DNA from: Candidatus Peribacteria bacterium
GTDB lineage: Bacteria; Patescibacteriota; Gracilibacteria; Peribacterales; Peribacteraceae
Assembly: GCA_023245765.1 (NCBI GenBank)
Contig: JAHFJP010000010.1
Span: 1-39,130 of the forward strand
DNA: 39,130 bases
Direction of reading: 5' to 3'
Below the pieces are notes generated by a model. That model was not told the origin of the DNA and ran no database searches. It saw only the letters and a program-made list of their open reading frames with translations. Both the position numbers and the translations under genes were made by a program. Positions 22,998-38,583 of the stretch are shown here, in pieces; the first letter of the stretch is position 1; each line of letters opens with the position of its first letter.

Positions 22998-23606
22998 ATG
23001 CCCTACACCCTCCCCACTCTCCCGTACGCATACGATGCGCTGGAACCGCACATTGATGCCAAGACGATGGAAATCCATCACTCGAAGCATCATCAGGCCT
23101 ACATTGATAAGGTGAACAAAGCCCTCGAGGGCACCGAGTGGGCGGAGAAGGGGATTGAAGAGGTTCTCCAGAACCTGGAGAAGCTACCGGCGGACAAAAA
23201 GAAGCCGGTGCAGAACAACGGCGGCGGACACTACAACCACAGCCTCTTCTGGACCGTCATGGCTCCAAAAGCCGGAGGGAAACCATCAGGAGATTTGTTG
23301 AAAGCCATTGAGAGCTCCTTTGGGAACTTTGAAGACTTTCAGAAGAAGTTTGAGGAGACGGCCCTCAATCAATTCGGCTCCGGTTGGGCGTGGCTGTATG
23401 TGGATAATAAAAAGCTTTTCCTCAAAGGGTATCCCAACCAAGACTCCCCAATAATGGAGGGAAAGACGCCTATCCTTGGCGTCGATGTCTGGGAACATGC
23501 CTACTATCTCAAATACCAGAACAAGCGCCCCGACTACCTGAAGGCCTTCTGGAACGTCGTGAACTGGGATGAGGTGAGCAGGCGGTGCAAGGAAGCGTGC
23601 AGCTGA
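22998..23606 (+). CDS. sodA: superoxide dismutase (Mn/Fe family)
   Basis: Converts superoxide to oxygen and hydrogen peroxide in the cytoplasm. The 202-residue protein has all metal ligands: His27 in [11 protein letters not shown], the His of [11 protein letters not shown], and Asp and His of [19 protein letters not shown]. The Gly before the second His and Gln in NQDSP point to manganese rather than iron, but the two forms are hard to tell apart by sequence. There is no signal peptide. ATG is placed by family start [17 protein letters not shown] and by TATACT 6 nt upstream. It suggests the cell meets oxygen despite a reduced genome. Confidence 0.96.
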
Positions 23607-23646: not shown

Positions 23647-24267
23647 ATGGGTATTGTTGAAGCGGGATCGCTTGATCTTAATACAATCCATTTACGCATT
23701 GGCGGAATAAAAACCAACAATGTCGTTCCCTTTGAAAAGGGGAATAAATTCATTATCGCGGAGCACTTTGTAGATCCAGATGGCAATCCTGTTGATGATG
23801 AACAATTTGATGTTTCTTCGATGTGTTATTCACTTTTTTCCGCACCGGAAGATGAAAATGATGGCCTACACGCTGCAGTTGTTGGTTGGCACGATATCGA
23901 AGGGGCGTTTGGCAGGTTCGTTGCAGGAGGTTTATTGAAAGGAAAATCAGAAAGTAAAATAGGAACGTTGGATATGAGTGATTACTCAAATCAATTTGGT
24001 GTTGAACCTCTCGTCGTGCGACAACGTTTTGCCGCCCTTCTCATTCCCCGAGCAAAGGAAATTCTGAAATCGAAAGAGATCATTGCGAGTACCGCAGTAA
24101 ATTTTTCCTGTTTGAGTTTGTATTGGCTCCGTTTTCGTCAGGTCTTGGATCAGTTGCATCAGCACTGTGCCGACACTCCAGACAAGGTAGATCAGGTGCT
24201 CAGGCAATATCGTGAAAGAGAAGAATCAGAGTTCATAGATTCTTTTGATTACTCTCGGATTGCTTGA
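23647..24267 (+). CDS. uncharacterised protein, paralogue 1
   Basis: A 206-residue protein of unknown family, followed by a diverged second copy. Shared pieces: GSLDL, LR(I/V)GG, KGNKFI(I/V), EHFVD..GNPVD, FDV(S/T)(S/T)MCYS, a Gly-Gly-Leu-Leu core, and near the C-terminus LYWLRFRQ(V/I)LD then YRERE. The N-terminal 60 residues are best conserved and look like a beta-rich domain; the C-terminal half looks helical. No signal peptide or membrane segment. The gene is AT-richer than its neighbours. GATAAT ends 9 nt before the ATG, and no Shine-Dalgarno is present. Confidence 0.7.
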   Translation: MGIVEAGSLDLNTIHLRIGGIKTNNVVPFEKGNKFIIAEHFVDPDGNPVDDEQFDVSSMCYSLFSAPEDENDGLHAAVVGWHDIEGAFGRFVAGGLLKGKSESKIGTLDMSDYSNQFGVEPLVVRQRFAALLIPRAKEILKSKEIIASTAVNFSCLSLYWLRFRQVLDQLHQHCADTPDKVDQVLRQYREREESEFIDSFDYSRIA

Positions 24268-24298
24268 ATCTGCTTGAACAAAACAGCGAAATGGACAG

Positions 24299-24325
24299 TT
24301 GACGGAATTATAGTACTGGTATGAT
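24299..24325 (+). promoter_or_regulatory. promoter of the second paralogue
   Basis: TTGACG (24299-24304), 15-nt spacer, TATGAT (24320-24325), 6 nt before the ATG at 24332. Confidence 0.5.
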
Positions 24326-24331
24326 TTGTGT

Positions 24332-24930
24332 ATGGACATCATTGAACCTGGATCGCTGGATCTTGATCAGGCGACGCTGCGTGTCGGCGGCGTGATGCTC
24401 AGTGACGACCGGGAAATTCTCGTAAAAGGAAATAAATTCATCGTCGTTGAGCATTTTGTCGATCATGAGGGAAATCCCGTTGATGAGAAGAGATTCGATG
24501 TGACGACGATGTGCTACTCGATTTTGTGGCGCCTGAGCGCGAGGATACGGGGAGACATGCAAGAGTTCTCCGCCATCATCAGGTTGTTGGCAAGACCGGA
24601 AGAATCGTTGGTGGTGGGCTGCTTACCTTGCAGGAGAATTCCATTGGATTGCGAGGCTCTTCGGGAGACTTCAATGCGGAGCCCCCACTCCAGCGTCAGC
24701 AATTCGGCCAGCTGCTTCTGCCGCAGTTGCAATCAATCTTGAAGAACGATGCGTTAACGATGGATGCCTACACCACGTTCTGGAGCACCAATCTTTATTG
24801 GCTGCGATTCCGGCAGATTCTTGATGCGATGGATCGTGATGAGCAACAGAGGGTGCGCCTTCCTGACAGGTTGGATTGGTATCGAGAAAGAGAGAGGGAT
24901 TATGAAAAACAAATGAATACCCCCAGCTGA
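24332..24930 (+). pseudogene. paralogue 2 of the uncharacterised family, frameshifted
   Basis: The first part (24332-24525) encodes MDIIEPGSLDLDQ...FDVTTMCYSI, matching paralogue 1. The match then continues in the -1 frame (FVAPEREDTGRH...LYWLRFRQILDAMDR...YRERERD), ending at 24930. The break falls in a four-T run at 24522-24525; one missing T would restore the frame. Both halves remain similar to paralogue 1, so the change is recent or is a sequencing error. It keeps a leaderless-type promoter. No standard slippery heptamer is present, so programmed frameshifting is unlikely. Confidence 0.7.
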
Positions 24931-25233: not shown

Positions 25234-25261
25234 TTGACAAGGGGGACTACGCGAATATATT
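25234..25261 (+). promoter_or_regulatory. promoter of the polyamine operon
   Basis: Exact TTGACA (25234-25239), 16-nt spacer, TATATT (25256-25261). The predicted start near 25268 leaves a leader of about 25 nt before the ATG at 25293. Confidence 0.7.
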
Positions 25262-25292
25262 TGGGCATATTATTTTTTCCCAATCAGAAGAC

Positions 25293-25865
25293 ATGGTTCT
25301 CTCCTCATCGAAGACGCTCGCCCCGCGTACCACCGCCAAGCGCGTCTTCCGTGCCAAGATCGAACTGCAGGATCGTCCTGCGTCATTCAAACCGCCGACT
25401 GAGGCGGAGTACAAGAGCAGCAATGCCTGGGGTCTGGCCACAGCGGTCGACATCCATGGCTGCAATGCCAAGACCATCCGGGACGCGGATGCCATCAAGC
25501 GCTTCACCAAGGAGCTCTGCAAGAGACTGGGTGTAAAAATGTTCGGCGAGACCGTCGTCGTCGATTTCGGCGCCGATCCCAAAGTGAGTGGCTTCTCGCT
25601 CGTCCAGTTGATCGAGACCTCCCTCGTTTCCGGCCACTTCGGCAACGGAGACACGAACTACGTCTATCTCGACGTGTTCAGCTGCAAGTACTACGACCCG
25701 CAAAAGATCATTGATTACGCACTCGAATTCTTCGAGGGCACCACGCACAACGCCCACTGCATGCTCCGCGGCTGTGAGAACTTCCCGCAGGAGTACCGTG
25801 AGGATTTCGCCAACCGCAATATCGTTCTGCAGGAGCTCTGTCCTCGCGTCCCCGCACGGGCCTAA
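25293..25865 (+). CDS. SpeD-fold pyruvoyl decarboxylase, probably altered specificity
   Basis: A 190-residue member of the AdoMet decarboxylase (SpeD) family, which self-cleaves at a Ser to form a pyruvoyl cofactor. Family blocks: AVDIHGCNAKTIRD near 51-64, then VSGFSLVQLIETS with Ser110, His115 in SGHF, and Cys131 in YLDVFSCKYYDP; these match the cleavage Ser, processing His and catalytic Cys, with one inserted residue. The usual ESH is replaced by ETS-Leu, so the first His after the Ser is missing. Some SpeD relatives are known to decarboxylate ornithine or arginine instead of AdoMet. The neighbour needs putrescine and no spermidine synthase is present, so ornithine decarboxylation is plausible (inference). 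Start 25293 lies downstream of the promoter; ATG 25230 would lie before it. Confidence 0.75.
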   Translation: MVLSSSKTLAPRTTAKRVFRAKIELQDRPASFKPPTEAEYKSSNAWGLATAVDIHGCNAKTIRDADAIKRFTKELCKRLGVKMFGETVVVDFGADPKVSGFSLVQLIETSLVSGHFGNGDTNYVYLDVFSCKYYDPQKIIDYALEFFEGTTHNAHCMLRGCENFPQEYREDFANRNIVLQELCPRVPARA

Positions 25866-25868
25866 GAA

Positions 25869-27374
25869 GTGGAGACGATTGAATCGTTATCGGCAAGGAT
25901 GCGGACCTCCTTCGGGGGACGCATCCTTTTGCTTGGCTACGGCGGCGTCTCCCAATGCACGTTGCCGCTTCTCCTGCGGCACATCGACATGCCCCGTGAC
26001 CGCATTACGGTCATGGATCTGATCGATTACGGCTCCTCGCCCATCCTGGCGCCATTTCTCAAAGAGGGCGTCAAGTTCGTGCAGGAGCACATTGTGCGCG
26101 ACAAGTATAAGGAGCAGCTCAAGAAGTACGTCGGCCCCGGCGACATCCTCATCGATCTGGCCTGGAACATGGCCTGCACCGACCTGCTCCAGTGGTGCCA
26201 TGACAACGACGTCATGTACATCAACACCTCCGTGGAGCTCTGGGATCCCTACGAGGACTTCGAGCACAAGCTCACGACGGACCGCACCCTCTACGTCCGC
26301 CACATGGCCATCCGCAAGATGATCAAAGAATGGGGGGGCAAGCCCAGTGCCACGGCAGTCCTGGAGCACGGTGCCAACCCCGGTCTCGTCTCGCACTTTA
26401 CCAAGCGCGCGCTCATCGATATCGCCAAGAAGATCATCGCGGAGAAGCCCAAGGATCCCCGCTGCGCGTCGCTCAAGTCCCTGATGGCCGAAGGGGCTTA
26501 CAACAAGCTCTCGCACCAGCTGGGGGTCAAAGTGATCCATATCAGCGAGATCGATACGCAGATTTCCAACAAGCCGCACGGCCCGGAGGAGTTCCTCAAC
26601 ACGTGGAGTGTCGAAGGTTTCTTCGAAGAGGGGACTGCCCCTGCCGAAATGGGCTGGGGAACGCACGAGCGCATTCTGCCTCCGGGCGCGCGTATGCACG
26701 TCTCCGGTCCGCGCAACCAGATCTGCATGGCGCAATACGGAATCAACACCTTCGTCCGGTCGCGCGTGCCCAGCCAGGACATCGTCGGCATGGTGGTCCG
26801 CCATGGCGAATCGTTCACCATCTCCGATTACCTTACCGTCAACGGCGAGGACGGCACGCCGGTGTACCGCCCCACAGTCCATTATGCCTACTGGCCATGC
26901 GCGGCCGCCATCGCGTCGCTCCACGCGCTGCGCGCACGCAGCTACAAGATGCAGGAGAAGTACCGCATCATGGAGGATGACATCCTCCCCGGCGGCAGAG
27001 ACGAACTTGGGGTTCTCCTGATGGGTCATGACTTCAAATCCTGGTGGGCCGGCACCATCCTCACGATCGACGAAACGCGCCGCCTTGTCCCGCACCAGAA
27101 CGCGACGACGCTGCAGGTGGCGGCATCTGTTCTCGGTGCCCTTTTCTGGATGATCAAAAACCCGCGCGCGGGCGTCAAAATCCCTGACCAGCTTCCCCAT
27201 GAGGAAATCATGCAGATCGCCGATCCGTACCTTGGCGAGATTGTCAGCAAGCCCATCGACTGGATGCCGCAGTACCGCGACGTTGCCTCCGCCAAGATCA
27301 ACCATAACTTCTCGCCTGCGGATGACGATCCGTGGCAGTTTCACCATTTCCTTCTCCAATCCCCCTCACTATGA
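25869..27374 (+). CDS. hss: homospermidine synthase
   Basis: Bacterial homospermidine synthase makes sym-homospermidine from two putrescines with NAD+ as a recycled redox cofactor and releases ammonia. The 501-residue protein has a Rossmann start RILLLGYGGVSQCTLPLLL, LAWNMACTDLLQWCHDNDVMYINT, then the family blocks EHGANPGLVSHF (near 166-177) and FLNTWSVEGFFEEGTAP with GWGTHE, which contain the Trp and Glu/Asn residues of the known active site. Length fits (about 475-490). Carboxyspermidine dehydrogenase is a related but shorter family. GTG start is 3 nt after the speD-like stop; an ATG ten codons on is an alternative. The end overlaps the next gene as ATGA. Confidence 0.88.
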   Translation: METIESLSARMRTSFGGRILLLGYGGVSQCTLPLLLRHIDMPRDRITVMDLIDYGSSPILAPFLKEGVKFVQEHIVRDKYKEQLKKYVGPGDILIDLAWNMACTDLLQWCHDNDVMYINTSVELWDPYEDFEHKLTTDRTLYVRHMAIRKMIKEWGGKPSATAVLEHGANPGLVSHFTKRALIDIAKKIIAEKPKDPRCASLKSLMAEGAYNKLSHQLGVKVIHISEIDTQISNKPHGPEEFLNTWSVEGFFEEGTAPAEMGWGTHERILPPGARMHVSGPRNQICMAQYGINTFVRSRVPSQDIVGMVVRHGESFTISDYLTVNGEDGTPVYRPTVHYAYWPCAAAIASLHALRARSYKMQEKYRIMEDDILPGGRDELGVLLMGHDFKSWWAGTILTIDETRRLVPHQNATTLQVAASVLGALFWMIKNPRAGVKIPDQLPHEEIMQIADPYLGEIVSKPIDWMPQYRDVASAKINHNFSPADDDPWQFHHFLLQSPSL

Positions 27375-28225
27375 ACCCTGCTCTCACCGTACTCCGTCGC
27401 GATATCGCCCTTTCTTCCGCTCGGAAGCAAAAGGTCGATCACCCGCATCTCCTGATGTGCGCTCCGGAATTCTTCGGGATCGAATACGAAATCAACGTGT
27501 GGATGGATGTGAACAATCCCTGCGACAAGGAGCTCGCTCATACGCAATGGATCCGCCTCAAACGCACACTCGAGAAATTGGGCGCACACATTCACCTCAT
27601 CGAGCCGGCACGGGAGCCTGACCTTGTCTTCACCGCCAATGCAGGCCTCGTGTACGACAACATCTTCATCCCGTCACGGTTCCGGTTTCCCGAGCGTCAG
27701 GGGGAAGAGAAGTACAACAAGAAGTGGTTCGCCGACGCCGGTTTCGAGATCAAAGAAGTTCCGGAAGGCGTTTTCTTTGAAGGTGCCGGAGATGCGCTGT
27801 TCGCGGGCGACACGCTCTTTGCCGGCTACGGATTCCGTACCCAAGTCGAGGCGTACGACCACATCCATCGCATTCTTGGCTGCAAGGTTGTTCCTCTGCA
27901 GCTCAAGGATCCGCGCTTCTATCACTTTGATACCTGCTTCTGCCCGCTCAACGATCATCAGGCAATTTACTTTCCAGGAGCGTTTACGGATGAAAGCGTC
28001 GAACTGATCAACAAGCACCTCGAAGCGTTCGCGGTTCCGGAAGCGGATGCCGCTCTCTACGCCTGCAATGCCGTGGTGATCGGCAATACCGTCGTGCATC
28101 AGGCCGGCTGCGCGGAAACGCAAGAGATCCTCCATCGTGCCGGATTCGAATCCCGTCCGGTCGATATGGGCGAATTCCGCAAATCCGGAGGATCGTCCAA
28201 ATGCCTCACGATCAAGCTCAATTAG
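27371..28225 (+). CDS. arginine dihydrolase/DDAH-family amidinohydrolase
   Basis: A 284-residue guanidino-group modifying enzyme (alpha/beta propeller). Visible catalytic positions: PDLVFTANAGLVYDN with Asn90, FEGAGDALF with Glu137 and Asp141, HFDTCFCPL with His185 and Asp187, and Cys278 in SGGSSKCLTIKLN near the end. The FTANAG form resembles arginine dihydrolases (ArgZ/AgrE N-domain, arginine to ornithine, CO2 and ammonia), whereas DDAH and arginine deiminase usually have acidic residues there. As the last gene in an operon with a decarboxylase and homospermidine synthase, supplying ornithine is a sensible job (inference). Dimethylarginase or deiminase activity remains possible. It overlaps hss by 4 nt. 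Confidence 0.75.
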   Translation: MNPALTVLRRDIALSSARKQKVDHPHLLMCAPEFFGIEYEINVWMDVNNPCDKELAHTQWIRLKRTLEKLGAHIHLIEPAREPDLVFTANAGLVYDNIFIPSRFRFPERQGEEKYNKKWFADAGFEIKEVPEGVFFEGAGDALFAGDTLFAGYGFRTQVEAYDHIHRILGCKVVPLQLKDPRFYHFDTCFCPLNDHQAIYFPGAFTDESVELINKHLEAFAVPEADAALYACNAVVIGNTVVHQAGCAETQEILHRAGFESRPVDMGEFRKSGGSSKCLTIKLN

Positions 28226-28485
28226 GTCGGTCTGAATATGTGATCACTGTCAGAGGAAATTCATGAAGAGTCCTTGTCAGAGCCAAATGTTATGAACATT
28301 GACTTAAATATTTAAATGAATTTTAAGATACTATTTTTTTATCGAATATCGAGGGGGAAGAGCGCTGGAAACCGCATGTGTAAGAGATATTTATCCTCGG
28401 TGTCAGAGTGTAATCCGATTGACACTGTTTTGCCAAAACAGGCAAAGTGTCCTCCTTTTTGTTCACCTCTCTTCCCCTCTGCACT
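28226..28485 (+). promoter_or_regulatory. leader region of the giant adhesin gene
   Basis: AT-rich start with TTGACT (28299-28304) and TAAGAT (28324-28329), a 19-nt spacer, as the best promoter guess; the palindrome TTAAATATTTAA lies between them. Further on are TTGACA (28419-28424) and the inverted repeat CTGTTTT-GCC-AAAACAG (28425-28441). GACACT/AGTGTC also flank this repeat, so alternative hairpins are possible. The last 35 nt before the ATG are pyrimidine-rich, as at the S-layer gene. Confidence 0.4.
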
Positions 28486-31400
28486 ATGGCGCGCCGCTCC
28501 ATTTTCTCTCTCTCCATCTGCGCCGTATTTGCACTGCATATCATTGCTCCGGCTCTTCCACTTCTTCCGACGTTTGCCATTGAGACTGCGAATGCCGCTG
28601 ATCCGCAGTGCAGCGATACAGTCGATAACGACCACGATGGCCAAGTCGACTTTTATGATTCAGATTGTTACAAAGACGGCGTCTATGATCGGACCAGGAG
28701 CGAGTCGGCGCCAGTGCAACAGCAAGGTGTGAAGCCGGCTTCGACGGTGTTCATGATGACCATCAACGGGAGTCACAATAATGCCAAGATTTATCCGGGC
28801 CAGCCCGTCACCGTGTCGTGGTCTGCGCCGTCGGGATACACGTATTGCAATACGGGAGTGTCTCCCGCTCAACCCAATGGCTGGGGAAGCTACGTCTACA
28901 AAAATCCCAGTGGCTCAGAAGTATGGTGGCCCACAGTCGCCGCCATGCGTTTCCAGCTGCAGTGTGCGATTGATCAAAATCATGGAATGGAAATAGAGGA
29001 TGGAGTCGCATCGGACTGGATCTACCAATGCTCCGACGGCATTGATAATGACAACGACGGCGTCATCGACATGAATGACGTCAGTTGCAGCTCGACGACT
29101 GACAATGATGAAACGAACCCCAAGGCTGCCTGTCAGGACGGTGCCGATAACGATAACGACGGTCTCATCGACTTTCCGCAGGATCCGGGTTGTTCGAGCA
29201 AGCAGGACAACGACGAGTTCAATGCTCCGGCTTCCGTGACGGACGCCTCCATCGCTCTGGACATTGATCCGCAGATCAATCGCGGCGACAATTTGCCGGA
29301 AAAAATCACTGTGAGGAATGTTGGGACAACCAATATCCCCGGTGGAGTCGTGAAGCAAACGATCCCTTCCGGCTTTACCTACAACCCGGCGCTTTCGAAT
29401 GTCTCCTGCACCGTTGCCGGTACGCTTCTCTCTTGCCCCGTGGGAGCGCTCGCACCCAATCAATCTCAACAACTCATCGTCTATTTGACCGTTTCGCCAT
29501 CGCTGGCATGCAATTCCACTGTGAACACGCTCGTCTCCTTCGAGCCGACGGTGACCGATAGCAATCCCGGCAACAACACCGCAGGCGATTCGTTCTTGGT
29601 CACTTGTTCCGCTCCGCCTCCGGCTGCGCAATGCGCCGACGGGATAGACAACGACAACGACGGTTTCGTTGACATGAACGACTTCAGCTGTAGCTCAGCA
29701 TCCGACAACGACGAAACCAATCCCAAGGCGCAGTGCCAGGATGGTGCGGATAACGATGGCGATGGTGTGGTCGACTCTCAGGATCCCGGTTGCGTGAACT
29801 CACAGGATAATGACGAGTCCAACGCCGCTCCCACTCCCCAATGCCGCAATGAAGTGCAGCAGGGAGTGCTGGTCAATAACTGCAACTCACCTGCTGGCAA
29901 TGGTCTCTGTACGAACGCGTTCTACAAGGACATCACGTTCAGCCAGACATACAGCGCTCCGCCAAACGTTCTCGTGACCATCAATCATATCACCGAAAGT
30001 CCATCGTGCGCGGGTGGTGCGACCGACAAAGCGCTCTGCTATCCGAGCAATATCACCACGACGGGCTTCCGTCTCAATTGCGGCGGTTCGCCGGTCAATG
30101 ACGCTTGCGGAACAGGAACGAACGGTTACTTCACCATGGCGACGGCCAACTGGACTGCGGTCGAATCCGGAGCCGCGTGCAAGGCGCAGAGCGGACACGG
30201 CATCGTCCCGCAGAATTGCTCGGATAATCAGGGTGGTCTGTGCGCATCGGGGACCTTCAGCACGCCGATCACCTTCTCGACGCCGTATGCCTCCGCGCCG
30301 AATGTTCTCGTTGCGGCGGAAAATGTCTCAAACCAGGCCGGTTGCGTGGGAGGTGCAACCGATCAAATCGAATGTTTCCCGTCCGGCATCACCACCACGG
30401 GCTTCACTCTCAACTGCAGCGGATCGCCGTACCAATCGTGCGGGACATCTGAGGGATTTAAATCCCTCGCGACCGCCGGATGGCTTGCAACGGAGACGAC
30501 GAATCAATGTCGCATCCAAAGCCAGCATCTACTGATGACGAATGAATGTCCGAGTGGCGTCATCAATCAGACGTGCGCCGGCGGCTTCCGCAAGACCGTT
30601 ACCTTCCCGCAGGCGTTTGGTGCTGCGCCCAAAGTGATCGTCAGTACGGAACTCACCACCGATTCCTCCGGCGTATCTGCGTGTGCTCAGGGAGCGTCGG
30701 ATGCGTACAAGTGTGAAGCACAGAACATCACCGCGACAGGATTCACCGCCGTCTGCTGGGGATCGCCCGAAGGCGCCGAGTGTGGAGCGGCACAGGAGGG
30801 ATACACCACGAGCGCGAAGTTCGGATACATGGCGATTGATGGCAGCTGCGCGCAGGGCAACCCGCCACCCACAGCGCAATGTTCCGACGGAGCCGATAAC
30901 GACGGTGATGGCTTTATCGACAGCAACGACTTCAGCTGCAGCTCGACCTCCGATAACGACGAAACCAATCCCAAGGCCCAGTGCCAGGACGGCATCGACA
31001 ACGACAACGATGGTAAGGTCGATTCCCAGGATCCCGGATGTGCTAATACGCAGGACAATGACGAGACCAATGCCGTGACCGGATCCGCGGATCTCTCCCT
31101 CACGCTGAACATTGATCCGCAGATCAACAAAGGCGACAACCTGCCCGTCAAATTCACTGTCCAGAACGTCGGAACATTCACCGTTCCCAATGCAGTGGTG
31201 ACCATGACCGTTCCCTCTGGAATGACCTTCAACGCCGGTCTCTCCAATCCCGCCTGTTCGGTGGCCGGATCGACGCTCACCTGCAACGTGCCGACGTTGA
31301 CGAGCGGTCAATCAGTCACCTTCCTGACCTACTTCGGCACGGCCTCGCAGGCATGCAGCGCGACGATTCCGTTCCAGGGCACGGTCACGACGTCTTCCAC

Positions 31401-34305
31401 GACCGACAGCAATCCCGGCAACAACACATCATCTGCATCGGTGCTCGTTACCTGCAGCAATCCGCCTCCTGCCCAGTGTTCCGATGGCATCGATAACGAC
31501 AACGACGGCTTCGTCGACATGAACGACTTCAGCTGCAGCTCACCGTCCGACAACGACGAAACGAATCCCAAGGCGCAGTGCCAGGACGGCATCGACAACG
31601 ACAACGATGGTAAGGTCGATTCCCAGGATCCCGGCTGCGTGAATTCACAGGACAATGATGAGTCCAATTCGGTTGCCACTCCCCAATGTTCCGATGGCAT
31701 CGATAACGACAATGATGGCTTCGTCGACATGAACGACTTCAGTTGCAGTTCGAGCTCCGACAACGACGAGACCAATCCCAAGGCGCAATGCCAGGACGGC
31801 ATCGATAACGACAACGACGGTAAGGTCGATTCCCAGGATCCCGGCTGCGTGAACAGCCAGGACAACGATGAGACCAATGCCGTTTCGTGTCGTCCCATAT
31901 ATTCGGGTGTAACAACCGTGGGATTCTATAACGGTCATCCTCATTCTGAGTTCACGCATGTCAATTTCCCGGCGAATTGCGCAAACCCGTCGGTGGTCAC
32001 GCAGACAATGGTCGATAGCGTTCTCTGTGGTAACGGTGGAGGCCCCATCACCTGCCCCAACGATCCGCAGACAACTTCCATTGATCTTCGTTCATACGCC
32101 GCCAATATCAGCACCACAGGTTTTGATGTCTTTCTCTCCGCCATGGATGGCGTCTGGGTGGGCGCAACGAGTCCGGCGTACCCCATTTCGTGGCAGGCTA
32201 CCTGTGAAGGCGATCCCATGGTCCCCGCGTGCTCCGACGGAAAAATGTTCAGCGGGATCGGATCCACCAGTTTCTACAACGGCTATTCGAATTCGCAGTT
32301 GGGCCCGATCAGCATTCCCTCGAGCTGCGTGAATCCTTCACTCGTCTCACAGAGCTACATCACGAGCACGCTCTGCGGCGACGGCTCAGGTCCGACGACC
32401 TGTCCGAACGATCCGGCAACAACTTCCCAGGCCATCATGTCCCGTGTCAGCACGACCTCCGTGTTCGTGTCGGGCAATAACGGCGTGTGGGTCGGTGCGG
32501 TCAGTCCGCAATTCCCCGTGGCGTTCCAGGCGATGTGCCAAAATGACATTGGCAGCACCGAGAAAGTCTACGGCGGCATTGCGAACGTGGGATGGTACAA
32601 CGGTCAGGCGCAATCAACGCTCGCACATGTCACGATGCCTCCGAATTGTGCCAGTCCCACCATCACGACACAGAGCAAGTACGATTCGATTCTCTGCGGC
32701 AACGGTGGTGGCCCCATCACTTGTCCGAATGATCCGAGCACAACCTCGGCTGACTTGCAGTCGTACGCGGTCAATATCAGCAGCACGGGCTTCGACGTCT
32801 TCCTGAGCGCCATGAACGGCGTATGGGTTGGCGCAACAAGTCCGGCGTATCCCATCGCTTATCACATCACCTGCAGGTCGTCGGGTACACCGCCGCCCCA
32901 GTGCAGCGATGGCATCGATAACGACAACGATGGCTTCGTCGACAGCAACGACTTCAGCTGCAGTTCGAGCTCCGACAACGACGAAACCAATCCCAAGGCG
33001 CAATGCCAGGACGGCATCGACAACGATAACGACGGGAAGGCCGATGCGGTGGATCCGGGTTGCGTAAACACGCAAGACAACGATGAGACGAATCCTGTCG
33101 GAACGGCAGATCTCGCCGCTCTCATCAGTTTGCCTCCGCAGATCAACCGCGGTGACAACCTGCCCGAGACGCTCAAGGCGCAGAACGTCGGTTCCACGAC
33201 GGTGCCTTCGGCGACCATCACGCAAACCATCCCCTCGGGCTTCGTCTTCAACGCCGGACTCTCCAGTTCGCTCTGTTCCGTGGCAGGCGTAACGGTGAGC
33301 TGCGCGGTAGGCACACTCACTGCAGGACAGACTGCGTCATTCCTCGTCTACCTCCAGGTGCCGGGCAACTACGCCTGTGGCACGAATCTCTCACTGCAGG
33401 ATACCGTCACGACCACGACTGCGACCGACGGTAACAGCGCCAATAACACTGCGGGCGCCACGACACTCGTCACCTGCGCGGGGGGATCGTCGTCTTCCTC
33501 CTCATCATCCACTCCCGCTGATCTGCTCGCAACGCTCAGCATTCCCGAACAGCTTGAGCCCCAGAGCGATCGCGATCTGCCCCAGACGTTCGGCATCAGT
33601 AACGTCGGCTCCGTGACGGTCCCATCGTCGACCATCACTCAGGTCATCCCGAGTGGCTTTACATTCAACGCTGGTCTCTCCAATCCGGCCTGCACCGCCA
33701 CCCCGACACTCGTCACCTGCAATGTTCCGGCGCTGGTCCCAGGGCAATCACTGTCGTTTGTCGTCTACCTCGATATGCCGACCAATCTGGCGTGTAACTC
33801 CACGCTGACCATGCAGATCACGGCCAATGCCATCGGCGTGACCGATGGTAACCTGGGTAACAACACCGCGTCTGATTCCGCATTGATCACGTGCCCGTCC
33901 TCATCGTCTTCGAGTTCGAGTTCTTCCACCGGCACGCTCGACCTCTCCGCGGGCATCAGTTTTGATCCCCAGGTCAGCCGCAGCGCCGTCTTCCCGGAAA
34001 AGCTAACGGCCAGCAACACCGGTTCCGTGAACGCGTCCGGCGTGATCACGCAGAACATTCCCGCTGGTTTCGTCTTCGACGGCGTTCTCTCGAACTCTGC
34101 CTGCTCAATTGCGGGAACGACCATCACCTGCACCGTCCCGACACTCACGCCCGGTCAGACCGTTACGTATCTGGTCTACCTCCAGGCACCGGCGAGCTAT
34201 GCATGCGGCGCGCCATTCTCCTCTTCCGATACCGTTACTGCCTCGGGTGACACCAATGTTGGGAACAACACCGCATCGGCTTCGACGCTGGTGACCTGCC
34301 CGTAG
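28486..34305 (+). CDS. giant secreted calcium-repeat/DUF11 adhesin-like protein
   Basis: A 1939-residue surface or secreted protein with a signal peptide (about 1-39, ending ETANAA). Six double modules of about 65 residues (start near 181, 382, 798, 997, 1067, 1472) have the pattern CSDGIDNDNDG...DNDETNPKAQCQDG...DPGC...QDNDE, Asp-rich like thrombospondin type 3 calcium loops, with regular Cys. Five DUF11-like beta domains (near 253, 865, 1540, 1676, 1818) start with DPQIN(R/K)GDNLPE or similar. Three H-type-lectin-like repeats (451-785) and three repeats starting GFYNG or similar (1135-1463) fill the middle. Two poly-Ser linkers precede the last two DUF11 domains. No LPXTG, SLH or C-terminal anchor is seen. 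ATG 28486 begins the signal peptide; the frame opens 13 codons earlier. Confidence 0.9.
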   Translation: MARRSIFSLSICAVFALHIIAPALPLLPTFAIETANAADPQCSDTVDNDHDGQVDFYDSDCYKDGVYDRTRSESAPVQQQGVKPASTVFMMTINGSHNNAKIYPGQPVTVSWSAPSGYTYCNTGVSPAQPNGWGSYVYKNPSGSEVWWPTVAAMRFQLQCAIDQNHGMEIEDGVASDWIYQCSDGIDNDNDGVIDMNDVSCSSTTDNDETNPKAACQDGADNDNDGLIDFPQDPGCSSKQDNDEFNAPASVTDASIALDIDPQINRGDNLPEKITVRNVGTTNIPGGVVKQTIPSGFTYNPALSNVSCTVAGTLLSCPVGALAPNQSQQLIVYLTVSPSLACNSTVNTLVSFEPTVTDSNPGNNTAGDSFLVTCSAPPPAAQCADGIDNDNDGFVDMNDFSCSSASDNDETNPKAQCQDGADNDGDGVVDSQDPGCVNSQDNDESNAAPTPQCRNEVQQGVLVNNCNSPAGNGLCTNAFYKDITFSQTYSAPPNVLVTINHITESPSCAGGATDKALCYPSNITTTGFRLNCGGSPVNDACGTGTNGYFTMATANWTAVESGAACKAQSGHGIVPQNCSDNQGGLCASGTFSTPITFSTPYASAPNVLVAAENVSNQAGCVGGATDQIECFPSGITTTGFTLNCSGSPYQSCGTSEGFKSLATAGWLATETTNQCRIQSQHLLMTNECPSGVINQTCAGGFRKTVTFPQAFGAAPKVIVSTELTTDSSGVSACAQGASDAYKCEAQNITATGFTAVCWGSPEGAECGAAQEGYTTSAKFGYMAIDGSCAQGNPPPTAQCSDGADNDGDGFIDSNDFSCSSTSDNDETNPKAQCQDGIDNDNDGKVDSQDPGCANTQDNDETNAVTGSADLSLTLNIDPQINKGDNLPVKFTVQNVGTFTVPNAVVTMTVPSGMTFNAGLSNPACSVAGSTLTCNVPTLTSGQSVTFLTYFGTASQACSATIPFQGTVTTSSTTDSNPGNNTSSASVLVTCSNPPPAQCSDGIDNDNDGFVDMNDFSCSSPSDNDETNPKAQCQDGIDNDNDGKVDSQDPGCVNSQDNDESNSVATPQCSDGIDNDNDGFVDMNDFSCSSSSDNDETNPKAQCQDGIDNDNDGKVDSQDPGCVNSQDNDETNAVSCRPIYSGVTTVGFYNGHPHSEFTHVNFPANCANPSVVTQTMVDSVLCGNGGGPITCPNDPQTTSIDLRSYAANISTTGFDVFLSAMDGVWVGATSPAYPISWQATCEGDPMVPACSDGKMFSGIGSTSFYNGYSNSQLGPISIPSSCVNPSLVSQSYITSTLCGDGSGPTTCPNDPATTSQAIMSRVSTTSVFVSGNNGVWVGAVSPQFPVAFQAMCQNDIGSTEKVYGGIANVGWYNGQAQSTLAHVTMPPNCASPTITTQSKYDSILCGNGGGPITCPNDPSTTSADLQSYAVNISSTGFDVFLSAMNGVWVGATSPAYPIAYHITCRSSGTPPPQCSDGIDNDNDGFVDSNDFSCSSSSDNDETNPKAQCQDGIDNDNDGKADAVDPGCVNTQDNDETNPVGTADLAALISLPPQINRGDNLPETLKAQNVGSTTVPSATITQTIPSGFVFNAGLSSSLCSVAGVTVSCAVGTLTAGQTASFLVYLQVPGNYACGTNLSLQDTVTTTTATDGNSANNTAGATTLVTCAGGSSSSSSSSTPADLLATLSIPEQLEPQSDRDLPQTFGISNVGSVTVPSSTITQVIPSGFTFNAGLSNPACTATPTLVTCNVPALVPGQSLSFVVYLDMPTNLACNSTLTMQITANAIGVTDGNLGNNTASDSALITCPSSSSSSSSSSTGTLDLSAGISFDPQVSRSAVFPEKLTASNTGSVNASGVITQNIPAGFVFDGVLSNSACSIAGTTITCTVPTLTPGQTVTYLVYLQAPASYACGAPFSSSDTVTASGDTNVGNNTASASTLVTCP
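31477..31896 (+). repeat. two nearly identical 210-bp tandem units in the adhesin
   Basis: The unit beginning TGTTCCGATGGCATCG at 31477 recurs at 31687, exactly 210 bp (70 codons) later, with only scattered, mostly silent differences. Four more diverged copies exist elsewhere in the gene. It indicates recent in-frame duplication. Confidence 0.85.
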
Positions 34306-34596: not shown

Positions 34597-37500
34597 ATGG
34601 CCAAGAAAATGAAGAAATCCGCTGCGAAGAAAAGCAAACCGGTGAAGAAGAAAATGATGAAGACAAAGAAGGTCGCGGCGAAAAAGCCAATCAAGAAATC
34701 TGTGCCGAAGAAGATGGCGGTCAAGATCGCGAAGAAAATTCTCCCGCAGAAAGCCGCCCCCGCCGCCCGGCCAGGATCCAAGTTTCAGTTGAAGAAAGGA
34801 GGAGGAAAGCAGGCACCACAACAGGAAGATATTCTGCGGCCGCTGAAAAAACTGGTGGTTCCAAAAAAGCCCTACCAGATGCACGTTGATCAGGAAGTGG
34901 TTCCTCACGTGCATCCCCACGTGATTCCACCCTCCGGCCGTGTGCCGTCGGTGTTCGCCAATTTGCCGGAGGCGCTGCATCCCAAAAAAGTGCAGATGGG
35001 CCGCGTGACGCTCGTGGAAGACGAAGACAACTCGCATGTGCCGTCACTGATCGAAATGCAGATCCTCAGCTACAAGTGGTTCCTCACCGAAGGTATCAAG
35101 GAGCTCCTGGAGGAAATCAGCCCGATTACCGACTTCTCGGGCAAAAAGCTTGAACTCCGCATTTTGGGGCACACATTCGATCCTCCCAAGTATGACCCCG
35201 AAACCTGCAAGCGTCGTAACCTCAGTTACGAAGCGGCGATGAAGGGCTACGTGCAGCTGATCAACCGCGAGACCGGTGAAATCAAAGAGCAGGACGTCTT
35301 CCTCGGATCGATTCCGCTCATGACCGATTCCGGCACATTCGTCGTGGACGGCATCGAGCGCGTGGTTGTCCACCAGCTCGTTCGCTCACCCGGAGTCTTC
35401 TTCAGCAAGATGCCTGATCATCCGCGCTATCATGCGGCCAAGATCATCCCCAAGCGCGGCGTGTGGCTCGAAATCGAAACCGACCGCCGCGGGATCATCA
35501 GCTGCAAGATCGACCGCAAGCGCAAAATCCCGATCACCCAGTTACTCCGCGTCTTCGGTTACGCCGGTGACGGACAGATTCTCGATCTCTTCAAAGACAT
35601 CACGAATCCCGATCACGATTACATCCTGACGACGCTCGAAAAAGATCCGATCCGCACGGTCGAAGAGGCGTACCAGAGTGTCTACCGCAAGATCCGTCCC
35701 GGCGATCTGGCCACGCCAGAGAATGCCAAGCAGCTGATCGATTCGCTCTTCTTCGATTTCAAAAAGTACGACATGGGCTCGATCGCCCGCTACAAGCTCA
35801 ATCGCCGCTTCAACCTCAAGACGCCGAGCGACGAGCAGCACCGCGTCTTCCAGGTCAGTGACTTCCTCGAGATCCTCCGTGAACTCGTCAAACTCAATAA
35901 CGGCGTCGGCGTCGCAGACGACATCGATCACCTCAGCAACCGCCGCGTCCGCTCCGTCGGTGAACTCGTGCAGAACAAGTACCGTGTCGGTTTGGTCCGC
36001 ACCGAGCGCATCGTCAAAGACCGTATGACGGTGATGGACATCGAAACCGTCACACCGACCCAGCTCATCAACTGTCGGCCGATCACCGCCGCGATGCGCG
36101 AGTTCTTCGCGTCGTCCCAGCTCTCCCAGTTCATGGATCAGACGAACCCGCTCGCCGAGCTTGCGCACAAGCGCCGTCTCTCCGCGATGGGTCCGGGAGG
36201 ACTCAGTCGCGAGCGCGCGAGCTTTGACGTCCGCGACGTGCACACCAGCCACTACGGTCGCATCTGCCCCATTGCGACTCCCGAAGGTCCGAACATCGGT
36301 CTTGTCGTCCATTTGGCCGGATTCGCGAGGGTCAACGAGTACGGATTCCTCGAAACGCCATACAAGGAGGTCAAACACGACATCGCACTCGATCCCGACA
36401 AGCTTATGGGTCGTATCATCGATGTGGTGGTGAAAGAAAGCCGCAAGGTGATCGCGAAAGAAGGCGATATCATTGATAAGAAAGAAGACGCCAAGAAGAT
36501 CGTCTCGATTCTCAAGAAAGAGGGAAAAAAGGATATCCCCGTCCGCGCGTATATCACCAACAAAGTCGTCTACGTGGACGCCGAACAGGAGCGTCACCTC
36601 ACGATTGCACAGGCCGAAACGCACGTGAGTGAGCACGACGAATTCATGACCACCCGCGTGTCCTCCCGCAAGGCAGGAGAGCCGCTGCTCGCGCACGTTC
36701 GCGATATCACACACGTCGACGTCAGCCCGCGTCAGATTCTCTCCATCTCTACCTCGCTCATCCCGTTCCTTGAGCACGACGACAACACCCGCGCGTCCAT
36801 GGGCACAAACATGCAACGCCAAGCTGTTCCCTTGATCAAGCCCCACGCACCACTCGTCGGCACCGGCATTGAAGGTCTCGCCGCGCGCGCGTCCGGTCAT
36901 GCGCTCCTTGCCGAAGAAGACGGCGAAGTCACGGCGGTCGATTCGCGCGAGGTTTCGGTCGTCTACGGCACGGGTAAGAAGAAAACCTACAAGCTCCACA
37001 CGTTCGTGCGCAGCAACCAGGGTACCTGTTTCCACATGCGCCCCAAGGTCGAGCGCGGGCAAAAAGTCCGCCGCGGTGAGCCGCTAGCAGATGGAGCGTC
37101 CGTCGAAGACGGAGAGTTGGCGCTCGGGCAAAACCTCCTCGTCGCGTACATGTCGTGGGAGGGCTACAACTTCGAAGACGCGGTGATCATCAGCGACCGT
37201 GTTGTCGAGGAAGGCTGGTTTGATTCCGTTCACATCGAGTCCTACGTCACCGATGTGCGCGATACCAAACTTGGACCCGAAATTGTCACGCGCGATATCC
37301 CCAACGTCGGCGAGGCAAAACTGAAAGACCTCGGCACCGATGGCGTCGTTCGTATCGGTGCAACCGTGCACGAAGGCGACATCCTCGTCGGCAAGATCAC
37401 GCCGAAAGGGGAGACGGAGCTCACTCCAGAGGAACGGCTGCTGCAAGCCATTTTCGGCGACAAGGCGAAGGACGTGAAAGATTCCTCCCTGCGCCTCCCC

Positions 37501-38583
37501 GGCGGTGCCGGCGGCAAAGTGGTCGATGTGCACATCTTCGACCGCGCAGAAGGCGATGAACTTCCCACGGGCGTCATCAAGCAGATCAAAGTGTTTGTCG
37601 CGCAGACCCGCAAGATCCAGGTCGGTGACAAAATGGCCGGCCGCCACGGGAACAAAGGCGTCGTCTCCCGCGTCGTTCCGCGCGAGGACATGCCGTTCCT
37701 CGCCGACGGCACGCACGTCGACATCATCCTCAACCCGCTCGGCGTCACGTCCCGCATGAACATCGGACAGATTCTCGAAACGCACCTTGGCTGGGCCTGC
37801 AAAGAATTGGGCATCAAGATCGCTACGCCCGCGCTCAACGGTATTTCGACCGATCAGATCCAGGCGTTCCTTAAAGAAGCCAAACTGCCGGCAACGGGGA
37901 AAATGCAGCTCTTCGATGGCCGCACGGGCCAGCCGTTCCAGTACGAGACGACGGTCGGTCAGGTGTACATGCTCAAACTGCTGCACCTTGTCGAAGACAA
38001 GATCCATGCCCGTTCCGTCGGTCCGTACTCGCTTGTCACCCAGCAGCCGCTCGGAGGCAAAGCTCAGCACGGAGGACAGCGCTTTGGAGAAATGGAAGTG
38101 TGGGCGCTGGAAGCCTACGGTGCGGCGTACACGCTGCAGGAAATGCTGACGATCAAATCCGATGACGTCATCGGGCGCAGCAAGGCGTATGAATCCATCG
38201 TCAAAGGCGAGCCGATCCGCCGCCCGTCGATCCCCGAGTCCTTCAACGTCTTGGTGAAAGAACTCCAGGCGCTCGGTCTCAAAGTCGAACTGCTGAAGTT
38301 CAAAGACGATGTCGCTCCCGAGGAGCGCGTGAAGATCGACGAGACCGTCATCGAAGCCGTCGAACTCGGATCGCGCATCGAAACCGAAGAAATCGCGGCC
38401 GAGGCCGTTCCCGAGGGTGATAAGATTTCCGAACTGGAAGATGTCGTCGCCGAAGCCGAAGGCGAACCGGCCGAAGAGGTGATCGCCGGTATCGAGGAAG
38501 GCGCGGAAGTTCAAGCGTCCGGCAAAGGTGCGAAGCAGGAAATGGCGGACGCAGCGAGTGAAGAAGCCGCTGAAGCGGCTTAG
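34597..38583 (+). CDS. rpoB: RNA polymerase beta subunit with basic N- and acidic C-tails
   Basis: RpoB forms one jaw and part of the active centre of RNA polymerase. The 1328-residue protein has all core blocks: VPSLIEMQILSYKWFL, VHQLVRSPGVFF, the rifampicin region SQLSQFMDQTNPLAEL...HKRRLSAMGPGG (about 507-540), ATPEGPNIGL, GYNFEDAVIIS, GRHGNKGVVS and GGQRFGEMEVWALEAYGA. Unusually, it begins with about 110 extra residues, first Lys/Ala-rich and histone-H1-like (KKMKKSAAKKSKPVKKK), then a His patch (PHVHPHV), and it ends with about 85 acidic residues (Glu/Ala-rich). The tails are in frame, with no internal stop and matching codon use. rplJ/rplL do not precede it and rpoC does not directly follow. 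Confidence 0.97.
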   Translation: MAKKMKKSAAKKSKPVKKKMMKTKKVAAKKPIKKSVPKKMAVKIAKKILPQKAAPAARPGSKFQLKKGGGKQAPQQEDILRPLKKLVVPKKPYQMHVDQEVVPHVHPHVIPPSGRVPSVFANLPEALHPKKVQMGRVTLVEDEDNSHVPSLIEMQILSYKWFLTEGIKELLEEISPITDFSGKKLELRILGHTFDPPKYDPETCKRRNLSYEAAMKGYVQLINRETGEIKEQDVFLGSIPLMTDSGTFVVDGIERVVVHQLVRSPGVFFSKMPDHPRYHAAKIIPKRGVWLEIETDRRGIISCKIDRKRKIPITQLLRVFGYAGDGQILDLFKDITNPDHDYILTTLEKDPIRTVEEAYQSVYRKIRPGDLATPENAKQLIDSLFFDFKKYDMGSIARYKLNRRFNLKTPSDEQHRVFQVSDFLEILRELVKLNNGVGVADDIDHLSNRRVRSVGELVQNKYRVGLVRTERIVKDRMTVMDIETVTPTQLINCRPITAAMREFFASSQLSQFMDQTNPLAELAHKRRLSAMGPGGLSRERASFDVRDVHTSHYGRICPIATPEGPNIGLVVHLAGFARVNEYGFLETPYKEVKHDIALDPDKLMGRIIDVVVKESRKVIAKEGDIIDKKEDAKKIVSILKKEGKKDIPVRAYITNKVVYVDAEQERHLTIAQAETHVSEHDEFMTTRVSSRKAGEPLLAHVRDITHVDVSPRQILSISTSLIPFLEHDDNTRASMGTNMQRQAVPLIKPHAPLVGTGIEGLAARASGHALLAEEDGEVTAVDSREVSVVYGTGKKKTYKLHTFVRSNQGTCFHMRPKVERGQKVRRGEPLADGASVEDGELALGQNLLVAYMSWEGYNFEDAVIISDRVVEEGWFDSVHIESYVTDVRDTKLGPEIVTRDIPNVGEAKLKDLGTDGVVRIGATVHEGDILVGKITPKGETELTPEERLLQAIFGDKAKDVKDSSLRLPGGAGGKVVDVHIFDRAEGDELPTGVIKQIKVFVAQTRKIQVGDKMAGRHGNKGVVSRVVPREDMPFLADGTHVDIILNPLGVTSRMNIGQILETHLGWACKELGIKIATPALNGISTDQIQAFLKEAKLPATGKMQLFDGRTGQPFQYETTVGQVYMLKLLHLVEDKIHARSVGPYSLVTQQPLGGKAQHGGQRFGEMEVWALEAYGAAYTLQEMLTIKSDDVIGRSKAYESIVKGEPIRRPSIPESFNVLVKELQALGLKVELLKFKDDVAPEERVKIDETVIEAVELGSRIETEEIAAEAVPEGDKISELEDVVAEAEGEPAEEVIAGIEEGAEVQASGKGAKQEMADAASEEAAEAA

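Follow-up and report, generated by a model that had tools for sequence, protein, structure and literature searches.

Where a genome has no spermidine synthase, homologs of SpeD, the S-adenosylmethionine (AdoMet) decarboxylase (AdoMetDC), frequently decarboxylate ornithine (SpeDC) or arginine (SpeDA) instead (Li et al., 2023, PMC10407285). The assayed enzyme from Ca. Peribacteria, OGJ64158 (197 aa), is encoded in a speD-hss cluster, decarboxylates ornithine with a Km of 0.27 mM and a kcat of 0.17 s-1, and is inactive on arginine or lysine. Four residues (Gln, Thr, Phe and Tyr) are diagnostic of SpeDC, whereas a proline marks a true AdoMetDC, and the combination of SpeDC with homospermidine synthase (HSS) requires NAD+ alone, as Li et al. 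pointed out. The two pathway steps of SpeDC and HSS are already published for the Peribacteria lineage via this homolog, with its ornithine decarboxylase activity and its clustering with HSS, while the question of how SpeD-derived decarboxylase genes fit into existing pathways was left open (PMC10407285). Ornithine itself can be made from arginine by the dihydrolase half of cyanobacterial AgrE, an enzyme that as a whole frees one CO2 and three NH4+ en route to proline (PMC8262935). Here we describe a three-gene operon, speDC-hss-argZ, in a stretch of 39,130 nucleotides from a Candidatus Peribacteria bacterium (GCA_023245765.1, contig JAHFJP010000010.1, positions 1-39,130 of the forward strand; hereafter the window). 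The operon very probably makes homospermidine from arginine, and appears to have taken the place of a gene set dependent on pyridoxal phosphate (PLP), agmatine and SpeY at the same slot. Not described before are the presence of a third gene beside speDC and hss, and an apparent exchange of whole routes between sister species at a single locus.

The operon consists of three intact plus-strand open reading frames (ORFs; 25293-28225, Table 1), with 3 nt between speDC and hss and an ATGA overlap between hss and the argZ-like gene, as a preliminary description of this DNA had read them. Its near-consensus promoter also stood up to comparison: the hexamers and their spacing are kept upstream of speDC in three relatives (L159, L161 and L162), amid flanking DNA that is no longer conserved, and the start codons of speDC in three relatives align with the ATG at 25293. 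A second candidate start codon for speDC, ATG 25230, is preceded by a good Shine-Dalgarno sequence but was rejected, because the promoter would then fall within the gene and the relatives' starts match 25293. Chance ORFs are ruled out by the length and intactness of the frames, by the conserved catalytic residues and, for speDC and hss, by a rate of nonsynonymous substitution (dN) far below that of synonymous substitution (dS). The ArgZ-like enzyme would convert arginine to ornithine with no cofactor, freeing the guanidino group as one CO2 and two ammonia. SpeDC would cleave itself at Ser110 to form its pyruvoyl cofactor and convert ornithine to putrescine, and HSS would couple two putrescines with NAD+ to give homospermidine. 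Transcribed as one polycistronic unit, the operon would lead from arginine to homospermidine in three steps without PLP, AdoMet or agmatine, with NAD+ as the only outside cofactor. We infer the activities of the three proteins, and the flux through them, from sequence and from the lines of evidence set out below, which also bear on the joined three-enzyme pathway that had been suggested.

The families that had been read from motifs hold for all three proteins. The speDC product matches PF02675 (AdoMet_dc) with 71.5 bits, but reaches only 35.7 bits with the AdoMetDC equivalog TIGR03330, below its cut-off of 75.65. Because PDB sequence searches with the single sequence or a profile gave no match, the fold was checked with an AlphaFold model (mean pLDDT 78, with low confidence over residues 1-29 and the final 10). 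The best match of this model is the T. maritima AdoMetDC (1tmi/1tlu; TM 0.86-0.87 on target, rmsd 1.8-1.9), so that the Pfam match and the model comparison both place the protein in the AdoMetDC class 1b fold. Ser110, His115 and Cys131 correspond to the processing and catalytic Ser63, His68 and Cys83 of the T. maritima enzyme, at spacings of 5 and 16; in relatives the second spacing is 15, one residue shorter than in the window protein. All SpeDC diagnostic residues are present (Gln105, Thr109, Phe116 and the Tyr of VYLD, in QLIETS-LVSGHF-...-VYLDVFSC), with columns matched by the order stated in the text of PMC10407285. The AdoMetDC-type proline after the catalytic His (HxWP) is missing, and a comparison phage AdoMetDC adjoining speE shows the opposite pattern, without the SpeDC diagnostic residues. 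Fold and Pfam membership would also suit a genuine AdoMetDC, or else an enzyme acting on arginine, in which case the operon product would not be homospermidine. We regard this as very improbable given the sub-threshold equivalog score, the residue pattern and the ornithine-only activity of the assayed Peribacteria homolog (PMC10407285), together with a genome in which no spermidine synthase was found to use decarboxylated AdoMet, and neither agmatinase nor agmatine deiminase as an outlet for agmatine. Gene 1 is predicted to encode SpeDC, a pyruvoyl ornithine decarboxylase, and the ornithine specificity on which the preliminary description had made its pathway conditional gains support from the homolog and the four diagnostic residues.

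The genome of the window (G000; 1.45 Mb in 71 contigs) is 95.3% complete, which makes genome-wide absences provisional, while the contents of the slot, which the window spans without a break, are certain. Within this assembly the genes that would have spoken for another route, some of which the preliminary description had asked to have checked, were not found. For spermidine synthase the sole weak match to PF01564 (20.6 bits) is KsgA, and searches with profile families gave no PLP ornithine or arginine decarboxylase, arginase/agmatinase, agmatine deiminase or SpeY (PF02784, PF00491, PF01276, PF04371 and PF01916 all unmatched). The genome likewise has no TIGR00300 ornithine cyclodeaminase gene.

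The second product carries the PF03435 and PF16653 domains and matches the bacterial homospermidine synthases of the PDB with an E value of 2e-95. Eight residues have been proposed for binding and catalysis in the B. viridis enzyme (Krossa et al., 2016, PMC4725965), and N162, E210, W229, E237, H296, E298, Y323 and D361 are identical in the window protein (8/8, alignment to 6s65), while some residues of the entrance pore differ (V93, D94, V115 and Y123). Gene 2 is a homospermidine synthase, predicted to convert putrescine with NAD+ to homospermidine. An hss with 77% identity to that of the window also occurs in another genome (G031; L039 4063-5553), with neither a speD relative nor a speD remnant nearby, and with no deoxyhypusine synthase (DHS) in the genome.

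The third gene takes the most weighing. The nearest solved proteins to its product are the cyanobacterial ArgZ (Sll1336) and AgrE (Alr4995), found in the PDB search with an E value of 6e-64, and identity to Sll1336 is 43.8% over 260 aligned residues. N90 and C278 conserve Asn71 and Cys264 of ArgZ, the residues mutated in 6juz (N71S) and 6jv1 (C264S); Asn71 presumably acts in the second hydrolysis, as the deposited mutants suggest. The AlphaFold model (mean pLDDT 90) matches ArgZ with Z 39.3 and rmsd 1.4, compared with Z 31.4 for the dimethylargininase (DDAH) of P. aeruginosa and 27.4 for arginine deiminase, and the fold is nearer to ArgZ than to either. Profile scores weigh against the dihydrolase assignment: the protein reaches 262 bits with the NCBIfam arginine dihydrolase model NF052232, short of the 450-bit cut-off, and scores almost equally (258.6 bits) with the 'dimethylargininase' model of the Mtb type. 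It also matches a DDAH Pfam family, and the cut-offs of the DDAH equivalogs are likewise not reached (258.6/300 for the Mtb type, 76.6/340 and 39/450). Because the dihydrolase and Mtb-type models score about equally, with the former below its cut-off, the family name alone does not decide, and for want of 450 bits we file the protein as ArgZ-like rather than as a member of NF052232.

These scores, and the superfamily fold common to all these enzymes, would fit a dimethylargininase or arginine deiminase that releases citrulline (with methylamines or ammonia) instead of ornithine, and that is linked to the operon by chance or for arginine catabolism. Gene partners argue otherwise. Some 85,000 species genomes scanned for ArgZ-like homologs yielded 80 loci, mostly from Planctomycetota, and about half of them have one shared gene directly upstream, often with a 4-nt overlap. 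The upstream partners sampled in Planctomycetota, Nitrospirota and Armatimonadota belong to TIGR00300, the nickel-pincer ornithine cyclodeaminase, and such pairs are the halves of AgrE in the form of separate genes. No SpeD or HSS adjoins planctomycetal argZ in the 80 loci, with flanks of up to 8 kb. Asn occupies the 71 position in all 78 members of a homolog set dominated by ornithine cyclodeaminase neighbours, whereas Asp stands there in 6 of 11 other Patescibacteria homologs and in the DDAH-like proteins of G016 and Bacillus. The M. ulcerans 'ddaH' (L171 3941-6057) has Asn at this position and overlaps rocD (ornithine transaminase), and the 'dimethylargininase' annotation group to which it belongs may really be arginine dihydrolases. 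With TIGR00300 and rocD as neighbours, the ArgZ-like family adjoins ornithine users, and the user here would be SpeDC. The wide margin by which ArgZ is the best match in structure and sequence, the Asn in place of the Asp of DDAH-like homologs, the ornithine-consuming neighbours and the ATGA coupling to hss leave a citrulline-releasing enzyme quite unlikely in our judgement. From sequence, fold, catalytic residues and gene partners, gene 3 is predicted to encode an ArgZ-type arginine dihydrolase (arginine to ornithine, two NH3 and CO2), in agreement with the role proposed for it earlier.

Three further observations concern this gene family. In the tree of ArgZ-like proteins, g36 is the partner of the window protein, a grouping of moderate support (84/51); branches are long in other parts of the tree, which was not used for rooting. 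The argZ-like gene has a lower GC content (55.9%) and GC content at third codon positions (67.6%) than speDC and hss (58.8-60.1% and 78-81%), which may reflect a separate origin. In other Patescibacteria (L149 1836-5650 and L150 7229-10685), an ArgZ-like gene whose product has Asp at the Asn71 position adjoins an amidohydrolase-like gene and a gene for a fusion of argininosuccinate synthase with an MGS-like domain; this Asp-type protein possibly carries out a different arginine or citrulline reaction.

Among the new lines of evidence, gene position is the strongest: the slot between sod and rpoB, in which the operon sits, is recognizable in congeneric genomes. All three genus-mates (G023, G024 and G025) have a sod 76-90% identical to that of the window at the edge of the slot, and rpoB is 93% (G023) and 86% (G025) identical where it lies within the stretch fetched. 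Adjoining sod, where the window has the operon, they carry genes for a PLP decarboxylase (LysA/ODC fold, that of ornithine decarboxylase, ODC), a DHS homolog of the SpeY type, AguB and AguA, whereas speDC, hss and argZ are all absent from these genomes. The PLP decarboxylase is probably an arginine decarboxylase (ADC), and the slot would encode a route from arginine via agmatine and putrescine to homospermidine. G012, of another genus, has both speDC-hss and the PLP-DHS-AguB-AguA set in the slot, G014 and G015 combine speDC-hss with a PLP decarboxylase and agmatinase, and G007 combines it with a PLP decarboxylase, DHS and AguB. Among the slot genomes compared, G000 alone has argZ in the slot and alone lacks PF02784, PF00491, PF04371 and PF01916 jointly; the window contains no remnants of a PLP decarboxylase, an agmatinase or a DHS fragment. 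Because the slot of genus-mates holds the other set and G000 is without the alternative genes, the operon looks like an NAD+-only route that has superseded a different way from arginine to homospermidine. On the simplest reading, an ancestor carried both gene sets, of which the genus-mates would have retained the agmatine/SpeY set and the species of G000 speDC-hss, with argZ taking the place of the lost arginine branch; such a scenario, including its direction and its ancestor, is our reconstruction. The slot swap in genus-mates in turn supports a complete arginine-to-homospermidine function.

The genomes with mixed slots deserve a separate remark. G012 (L160), G014 (L161), G015 (L162) and G007 (L159) have speDC-hss beside a PLP decarboxylase of ODC/ADC fold and agmatinase or AguA/AguB, while genomes with anomalous SpeD homologs were said to lack canonical or PLP ADC/ODC (PMC10407285). 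The four do not fit this statement, except if their PLP enzyme should be a decarboxylase of diaminopimelate (277 versus 298 for TIGR01048).

Co-occurrence of the three genes in relatives, which had been proposed as a check, was found in part: the speDC-hss pair occurs in four further genomes of the order, and the exact triple in G000 only. Across 74 genomes of the order, speD relatives are present in 14 and hss in 20, and argZ-like genes at high similarity in three (the window, and G064 and G068 at 55%). Of 380 genomes across the phylum, 13 have an argZ-like gene, the window's included, and in the stretches examined none of the other 12 has it beside speDC or hss. Phages and plasmids searched for the operon gave only distant SpeD or DDAH-like matches. 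Several of these counts speak against a dedicated three-step operon, namely the single occurrence of the triple, the position of the argZ-like genes of G064 and G068 outside any operon with speDC-hss, and the four relatives that keep speDC-hss without argZ, because of which SpeDC can have another ornithine source. Reduced genomes often scavenge. It could be that SpeDC and HSS act as published while the ArgZ-like enzyme mainly feeds ammonia or ornithine elsewhere, the cell importing ornithine or putrescine, with little flux through the three steps. We consider this unlikely, as the gene is translationally coupled to hss under a common promoter, and as every other detected arginine-to-putrescine gene is lost in the sole genome with the triple.

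G064 and G068 also carry a two-domain SpeD-SpeDC-like fusion of 321 aa (L033 6598-7563 and L034 5621-6586), whose N-terminal domain is without the pyruvoyl serine and whose C-terminal domain keeps QLIETS. The fusion is near an argZ-like gene, at a distance of 2.6 kb in G064, and near a methyltransferase of the NNMT/PNMT type.

Table 1. Features of the window that make up or delimit the operon and its slot
Feature	Position	Strand	Remarks
Sigma-70-type promoter, TTGACA-16-TATATT	25234..25261	+	11/12 consensus positions
speDC, AdoMetDC-fold pyruvoyl enzyme, predicted L-ornithine decarboxylase, 190 aa	25293..25865	+	ATG start
hss, bacterial homospermidine synthase, 501 aa	25869..27374	+	GTG start
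argZ-like, predicted L-arginine dihydrolase, 284 aa	27371..28225	+	ATG start
Fe/Mn superoxide dismutase (sod), left edge of swapped slot	22998..23606	+	PF02777/PF00081
rpoB, right edge of swapped slot	34597..38580	+	Rpb2 domains

The slot holds other genes besides the operon. Between sod and the operon lie two adjacent related ORFs of unknown family (23647-24930), the first without a Pfam match, and G024 has a 33% similar ORF at the equivalent place. Directly downstream of the operon, 28447-34305 encodes a secreted-type repeat protein of 1952 aa with many DGIDNDNDGFVD calcium-type motifs.

If the assignments are true, the operon provides an additional biological route from arginine to homospermidine, and shows where the pyruvoyl ODCs of reduced bacteria can obtain ornithine. 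That congeneric genomes should differ by such a natural replacement at one locus, while the input and the product seem to have stayed the same, suggests that selection acts on homospermidine and not on any particular set of enzymes, and possibly also favours the sparing of PLP and AdoMet. The operon would further help to interpret the many proteins that now bear the name 'dimethylargininase' and have ornithine users as neighbours. We think it likely that the free-standing ArgZ is a modular ornithine source, coupled to a cyclodeaminase, to a transaminase and here to a pyruvoyl ODC, and that it completed an NAD+-only route which replaced the PLP/agmatine/SpeY route at the same locus with input and product conserved.

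Compared with known systems, the locus is closest to the SpeDC-HSS clusters of Ca. Peribacteria and Ca. Kaiserbacteria (PMC10407285), which have the same pyruvoyl ODC of AdoMetDC fold beside HSS and no spermidine synthase nearby; the text on those clusters reports no arginine-to-ornithine enzyme ('arginine dihydrolase' is absent from it) and does not describe the slot swap. With cyanobacterial ArgZ/AgrE the window protein shares the dihydrolase domain (44% identity, the same fold, Asn71 and Cys264), but it is free-standing and would pass ornithine to a predicted ornithine decarboxylase instead of a cyclodeaminase. The split pairs of ArgZ and cyclodeaminase in Planctomycetota, Nitrospirota and Armatimonadota likewise have a free-standing dihydrolase that lies downstream of its pathway partner and is coupled to it, often through an overlap of 4 nt; this partner is ornithine cyclodeaminase, on the proline route, and not polyamine genes. 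The route of giant viruses (PMC9992855) also runs from arginine through ornithine and putrescine to homospermidine in three steps, whereas its first two enzymes, a metal arginase and a PLP decarboxylase, are unrelated to those of the window. The SpeY route of the genus-mates (PLP decarboxylase, DHS/SpeY, AguB and AguA) occupies the same slot and has the same probable start and end compounds, yet it passes through agmatine, needs PLP and has no genes in common with the operon of the window.

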